From: Myxosarcina sp. GI1 | Lineage (GTDB): Bacteria > Cyanobacteriota > Cyanobacteriia > Cyanobacteriales > Xenococcaceae | DNA length: 64,000 bases | Assembly (NCBI RefSeq): GCF_000756305.1 | Contig: NZ_JRFE01000004.1 | Span: 31,640-95,639, forward strand | Direction: 5' to 3' | Part shown: positions 38,033-38,350 of the stretch, piece by piece | Layout: each line of letters begins with the position of its first letter | Numbering within the stretch: the first letter of the stretch is position 1 | The notes under the pieces: generated by a model | Told to the model about the DNA's origin: nothing | Databases searched by the model: none | Seen by the model: only the letters and a program-made list of their open reading frames with translations | Made by a program: the position numbers and the translations under genes

Positions 38033-38075
38033 ATTTCTGTATTGGAAAAAGTTGAAAGGAGCAGAGGACTGAAAA
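38033..38075 (+). ncRNA. Atypical repeat with tRNA-Phe homing guide
   Basis: After the last repeat, TATTGGAAAAAGTTGAAAG (38040-38058) is a diverged repeat end. Its TGGAAAAAGTT is the exact complement of the tracrRNA anti-repeat AACTTTTTCCA. It is followed by GAGCAGAGGACTGAAAA (38059-38075), identical over 17 nt to the tRNA-Phe gene at 38278-38350 (protospacer 38313-38329, minus strand). The three bases before the protospacer are GTA, a GTN PAM. Short delocalised guides of this kind direct V-K CAST homing to tRNA genes. Confidence 0.85.
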
Positions 38076-38111
38076 CTGTAAGGGTGTTTCAGTTAAGATA
38101 AATCGAATTAA

Positions 38112-38272
38112 TTTTTGACATTAATTCTTTAAATCTGGTTTTTTGGGCAAAAATCTTTGCACTTTAAACCAATAAAAACATAAAAAAGGCTCAAACGCCT
38201 ATAAAATCGTTCAAGCCATGCAGTTTTTTGACATTAATTCTTTAAATCTGACAAATAACTCTTTAATGTACA
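38112..38272 (+). mobile_element. Transposon end of the CAST (array side)
   Basis: Two direct copies of a 26-bp motif (start TTTTTGACATTAATTC, end TTTAAATCTG) at 38112-38137 and 38225-38250, followed by TGACAAATAACTC and terminal TGTACA at 38267-38272. TGTACA termini and repeated TGACA/TTAATGTCA-type TnsB sites are characteristic of V-K CAST ends. The end lies 57 bp from the PAM in tRNA-Phe, just short of the 60-66 bp window known for V-K insertion. AAGGA (38273-38277) would be the 5-bp target duplication; its partner at the other end was not found. Confidence 0.75.
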
Positions 38273-38277
38273 AAGGA

Positions 38278-38350
38278 TGGCGGGAGGCGGATTTGAACCG
38301 CCGACACGAGGATTTTCAGTCCTCTGCTCTACCGACTGAGCTATCCTGCC
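38278..38350 (-). tRNA. trnF: tRNA-Phe (GAA)
   Basis: A 73-nt cloverleaf. Acceptor GGCAGGA/TCCCGCC (one A4-C69 mismatch), D-arm GCTC...GAGC, anticodon stem GAGGA/TCCTC with loop CTGAAAA (anticodon GAA), T-arm GGCGG-TTCAAAT-CCGCC and discriminator A. CCA is not encoded. It is the CAST attachment target: the guide covers the anticodon arm and the gene stays complete because insertion is downstream of its 3' end. Confidence 0.95.

Follow-up and report, generated by a model that had tools for sequence, protein, structure and literature searches.

Degraded element next to a tRNA-Phe gene

On the plus strand of the window (the whole stretch of 64,000 nucleotides analysed), the remains of a transposon are arranged as follows: a C-terminal fragment of TnsB (36164–36427) running directly into a C-terminal fragment of Cas12k (36411–37181), a tracrRNA region, three CRISPR repeats, a truncated repeat (R*), a guide and a transposon end. 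The TnsB fragment, read in a different frame from that of Cas12k, was recognized by tblastn against full-length TnsB of type V-K loci such as L152 (at most 43 % identity, E 1.7e-15). The Cas12k fragment corresponds to positions 388–629 of the 629-position profile used in the genome search and is interrupted by two TAA stops in its upstream portion, the uninterrupted reading frame (36555–37181, 208 aa) matching NF038191 at 2.1e-64. Of the genes of a type V-K CRISPR-associated transposon (CAST), cas12k and tnsB thus persist only as C-terminal parts, while the N-terminus of TnsB, TnsC and TniQ are absent and no TniQ is encoded within the window. Assignment to type V-K is further suggested by an anti-repeat-bearing tracrRNA region after cas12k in combination with CRISPR repeats ending in GTTGAAAG.

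The predicted and possibly decayed tracrRNA region (37216–37596, plus strand) was read against its relatives, with a putative 5' limit set according to the transcription start in Anabaena 7120, 35 nt after cas12k (PMC9938897). It is longer than in the relatives, its upstream hairpin has diverged (no PWM match for the window), and Rfam gave no tracrRNA match at gathering score. Conserved features are GGCTAC at 37560 and the hairpin CCCC-TTTTT-GGGG (37573–37585), which is directly followed by the anti-repeat AACTTTTTCCA (37586–37596, plus strand). Right after the anti-repeat, a short dispersed repeat (37592–37645) is present with similar copies on contigs C4, C16, C55 and C64; a stretch at 38920–38965, within a transposase pseudogene, resembles it as well. 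This IS701-like pseudogene (NF041680; 38522–40039) is in two pieces and located beside the tRNA-Phe gene.

The CRISPR array (37848–38032, plus strand) consists of three identical 37-nt repeats (37848–37884, 37922–37958, 37996–38032) and two 37-nt spacers. No further copy of the repeat (up to 3 mismatches over 27 nt) is found elsewhere in the genome, and a host array was accordingly rejected as its source. R* (TGGAAAAAGTTGAAAG; 38043–38058, plus strand), placed and formed like the R* described in PMC9938897, has only the last 8 nt (GTTGAAAG) in common with the array repeats and is followed by a 17-nt spacer (38059–38075, plus strand). The cas12k-side transposon end (38105–38272, plus strand) contains two identical repeats resembling TnsB sites (38116–38133, 38229–38246), terminates in TGTACA (38267–38272) and matches the end layout of L176–L178. 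Just beyond it, the minus strand carries an intact tRNA-Phe (GAA) gene that points at the transposon end (38275–38351 by ARAGORN; Rfam RF00005, 38278–38350, 69.2 bits), the Rfam 3' end at 38278 being 5 bp off the terminal TGTACA.

Since neither a second end (no end-like site elsewhere in the window) nor a target-site duplication was found, the insertion boundary rests on the guide-side end. End-like sequences 90–92 % identical to it are present at C4:30718–30767 (L009) and C3:150179–150226 (L010); the former, the best match (92 %) and located 39 kb upstream of the guide-side end, shortly before the start of the window, was rejected as partner end because of its differing flank (ATTTT vs AAGGA). 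With TnsB and Cas12k fragmentary, TnsC and TniQ gone and the second end not found, the element is dead in cis and cannot move alone. The locus is a remnant rather than a complete type V-K CAST, most simply explained by deletion of its middle along with decay.

The guide, its target and related loci

The spacer GAGCAGAGGACTGAAAA is identical over 17 of 17 nt to the anticodon-arm sequence of tRNA-Phe (38329–38313, minus strand), as proposed in the first-pass annotation, and exact copies of this 17-mer exist at only two places in the window and the whole 7.07-Mb genome, i.e., 38059–38075 (plus) and the protospacer at 38313–38329 (minus). Also in agreement with that annotation, the protospacer is preceded by a GTA PAM of the GTN class (minus strand, read as plus-strand TAC at 38330–38332), and its PAM-proximal base is separated from the TGTACA end by 57 bp. 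The accompanying comparison with a known range of 60–66 bp proved too narrow, since natural distances spread from 46 to 82 (PMC9938897) and from 43 to 66 (median 60) in 59 loci of the survey described below, so that 57 bp is ordinary.

The V-K anchor comprises an R* of ~12 nt and a 17-nt anchor spacer, with a GTN PAM and a tRNA gene directed at the transposon end at a distance of 46–82 nt (PMC9938897); the homing unit was also given as a 13-nt repeat with a 17-nt spacer (PMC12719977). Such guides are truncated, separate and directed against diverse tRNA genes, the sites differing even among close relatives (PMC11406308). As judged from the sequence, every feature of this unit is present here: a truncated R* with a ~17-nt spacer outside the array (38043–38075), a GTN-flanked protospacer within a gene immediately beyond the end at a distance within the published limits, a tRNA towards the cas12k-side end, a TGTACA terminus, and array as well as tracrRNA located between cas12k and the end. 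This architecture assigns the locus to the published kind. The segment therefore very probably (about 95 %) represents the guide-side end of a decayed type V-K CAST (Tn7-like, Cas12k), in which R* and the 17-nt spacer form a dedicated homing crRNA gene, as the first-pass annotation had supposed. Compared with typical V-K anchors, the element is deleted to ~2 kb, has tRNA-Phe as site, carries R* only 10 nt past the last array repeat, and has GGAAAAAGTT as R* stem where GGTGGGTT is usual, the anti-repeat having changed along with it. It is nevertheless an ordinary decayed member of a kind whose homing guides are already known (Saito 2021 and Hsieh & Peters 2021, both cited for them in PMC9938897 and PMC11406308).

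For comparison with these relatives, 103 distinct cas12k 3' flanks from cyanobacterial genomes were surveyed by a fixed rule, i.e., a GTTGAAAG-like R* and, right after it, 17 nt found again further downstream on the opposite strand, adjoining GTN. R* and a 17-nt anchor with a GTN-adjacent protospacer were detected in 90 flanks (59 exact, 28 with one and 3 with two mismatches). A GT was demanded at the PAM; when this filter was dropped, the exact anchor matches also showed GTN. Eighty of the 90 anchors are located at tRNA genes, and reversed spacers yielded no match in any of the 103 flanks under the same rule (up to one mismatch). These figures reproduce the anchor descriptions in PMC9938897 and PMC11406308, supporting the unit in the window as a member of that kind.

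The same genome harbours two further V-K loci, with guides against other tRNAs, in keeping with the fluidity known for att sites of V-K elements (PMC11406308). The one on C24 (L046, G000:C24:86000–105000) has a full-length Cas12k and a guide with 1 mismatch to tRNA-Ala(GGC); between its array and R* there is a sequence that resembles a group II intron reverse transcriptase. In the one on C14 (L047, G000:C14:526000–545500), Cas12k contains one in-frame TAG and the guide matches tRNA-Asn with one mismatch; its R* shows hardly any complementarity to the anti-repeat, a trait shared with the related loci L084 and L079.

The suggestion that tRNA-Phe be added to the possible V-K homing sites is borne out by its recurrence. 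It is the site of 3 of the 90 survey anchors, and a fourth case emerged when 390 genomes were searched by pattern, giving four loci in four cyanobacterial families. The search for the same guide in related cyanobacteria, recommended in the first-pass annotation, was thus successful. The element of genome G025 (L027/L178) shares the identical 17-nt guide, the GTA PAM and tRNA-Phe with the window, its end being 61 bp from the PAM; it differs by a full-length Cas12k gene, by the canonical R* AGGTGGGTT and by a Cas12k that does not group with the window fragment. In genome G344, likewise with a full-length Cas12k gene, the tRNA-Phe guide differs by one base and the end lies 60 bp from the PAM. The fourth case is a solo end in genome G389 (L176:9626–9698) that retains an R*-like CGACATTGAAAG, the TGTACA end (57 bp from the PAM, hand-counted) and the same guide to tRNA-Phe, but lacks Cas12k within the surrounding 14 kb. 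Relatives with full-length cas12k therefore carry this guide to tRNA-Phe and not, as would have spoken against the proposal, to a different tRNA. Shared inheritance of tRNA-Phe homing found no support in the Cas12k tree, where the three tRNA-Phe elements do not group together; the Cas12k fragment of the window forms a long branch whose placement the tree leaves unsettled.

Duplicated tRNA segments are common at the ends of mobile elements, and the 17-nt match might on this general ground be regarded as such a duplication, e.g., the attachment-site repeat of an integrase element, instead of a guide. This is highly improbable: the similarity is restricted to exactly 17 nt, with flanks that diverge immediately at either border (guide ...GTTGAAAG|17|CTGTAAGG vs tRNA ...GTCGGTA|17|TCCTCGTG), and the abrupt boundaries rule out a longer tRNA duplication, which the first-pass annotation had named as a refutation of the guide. 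Moreover, the 17-mer follows the repeat-like GTTGAAAG, has the strand order expected of a guide as well as a PAM, and the identical layout recurs with unrelated tRNA sequences at 80 V-K loci. Duplications at integrase attachment sites usually repeat the 3' part of a tRNA in direct orientation, whereas the present copy is inverted and corresponds to the anticodon arm. A decayed spacer sharing 17 nt with tRNA-Phe by mere chance has a very small probability, considering that ~2e-7 such matches are expected from base counting within 1.5 kb on either strand, that the reversed-spacer control remained empty, and that three other genomes carry the same guide at tRNA-Phe. Both proposals are thereby refuted in favour of a homing guide.

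Pairing of R* and array repeats with the anti-repeat

The anti-repeat of the window is perfectly complementary (11 of 11 nt) to the R* segment TGGAAAAAGTT (38043–38053), a complement of this length being reached in none of 2000 shuffles of the tracrRNA region. The array repeat is mismatched to the anti-repeat at position 4, and the predicted duplexes amount to −12.3 kcal/mol for R* vs −9.1 kcal/mol for the array repeat, confirming that the atypical repeat is an exact complement and a better one than the array repeats. Since R* and anti-repeat of the window both depart from the family form (GGTGGGTT/AACCCACC), they have changed together.

Whether the anti-repeat is kept tuned to the homing guide, as had also been suggested, could not be decided from this element alone, but the idea received strong support from the family (57 distinct anti-repeat/R*/array sets, the window left out). 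Family anti-repeats were located by the upstream hairpin only, without use of complementarity, while that of the window was placed by hand. All 8 first positions are paired in 35 R* vs 7 array repeats. The difference is concentrated at position 6, counted from the 3' end of the stem, where 86 % of R* but 26 % of array repeats are paired; every other position up to 8 is paired in at least 74 %, in R* and array repeats alike. An example of the position-6 array mismatch is provided by a system with the anti-repeat AACCCACC, the array repeat GGCGGGTT and the R* GGTGGGTT.

With the anti-repeat of its own locus, R* forms 7.39 of 8 pairs, vs 6.44 when swapped between loci (reached in 0 of 5000 shuffles); for array repeats the values are 6.70 vs 6.50 (16 of 5000). 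Such locus shuffles are inflated by relatedness, but the tree is common to R* and array repeats. With Cas12k proteins clustered, R* pairs better in 39 and worse in 5 clusters at 90 % identity, better in 25 and worse in 5 at 80 % (p = 3e-4; 80 V-K loci), and better in 19 and worse in 3 at 70 % (p = 9e-4). These values support selection for R*:anti-repeat pairing, with much weaker selection for the arrays. An R*-tuned anti-repeat is, however, not a universal V-K rule, since a minority of loci depart from it: array repeats pair better in L054, L068, L078, L095 and L107, and in a small group (L079, L084, L013/L047) there is scarcely any pairing between R* and the identified anti-repeat.

Proposed homing route and choice of guide

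The homing crRNA would be encoded near its mature size, comprising a 17-nt spacer and a short repeat that lacks the 5' arm of the hairpin, and may join the tracrRNA via R*:anti-repeat pairing without prior opening of a hairpin such as that predicted for the array repeat of the window (−12 kcal/mol). Subsequent loading of Cas12k with crRNA:tracrRNA would allow recognition of GTA and the tRNA-Phe anticodon arm, and TnsC/TnsB would then insert the element ~57 bp past the PAM, the tRNA staying intact. Transcription, Cas12k loading and a past transposition along this route are likely to have occurred at the present locus as well. A tracrRNA fitted to R* may keep homing efficient, while the array repeats are possibly subject to other constraints (hairpin, processing, perhaps host type I-D adaptation as per PMC11406308) under which the mismatch would be tolerated.

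One may speculate that the homing guide is loaded preferentially owing to its better fit to the anti-repeat, and that position 6 of the duplex has a regulatory meaning. Tentatively, and with odds of about one in three, the V-K anti-repeat would co-evolve with R* rather than with the array repeats, the built-in position-6 mismatch of the latter ranking the guides such that homing is preferred and the arrays serve a weaker pathway for mobile targets. With roughly even odds, the fit of R* to the anti-repeat is irrelevant to guide choice: arrays would be fixed by their own hairpin, processing or host adaptation, joint changes in R* and anti-repeat would maintain their pairing, and the guide used would be unaffected by the position-6 mismatch of the arrays. 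In favour of this, position 6 of the array repeat lies inside the predicted hairpin of the repeat itself in 34 of the 57 distinct sets, the array repeat of the window folds by itself as given above, and host type I-D adaptation has been suggested as the supplier of V-K arrays (PMC11406308). Against this stands the supported selection for R* pairing and its weakness in the arrays, with which neutrality of the array mismatch is still compatible; none of these observations is decisive.

Type I-F3 CASTs employ atypical-repeat homing guides as a separate guide class for chromosomal att sites. This guide class is common to I-F3 and V-K, whereas I-F3 systems are Cascade-based and have no tracrRNA.

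The present locus places tRNA-Phe, recurrent in four cyanobacterial families, among the sites of a known homing mode. Beyond that, the survey makes testable how one Cas12k–tracrRNA tells array guides from a chromosomal guide of privileged rank, and one position of the repeat:anti-repeat duplex is a natural candidate for separating the two. Since the tracrRNA appears to be selected for the natural homing pairing, the bias also matters for the design of V-K guide RNAs, and it is this family-wide pairing bias, more than the locus itself, that deserves the attention of specialists.
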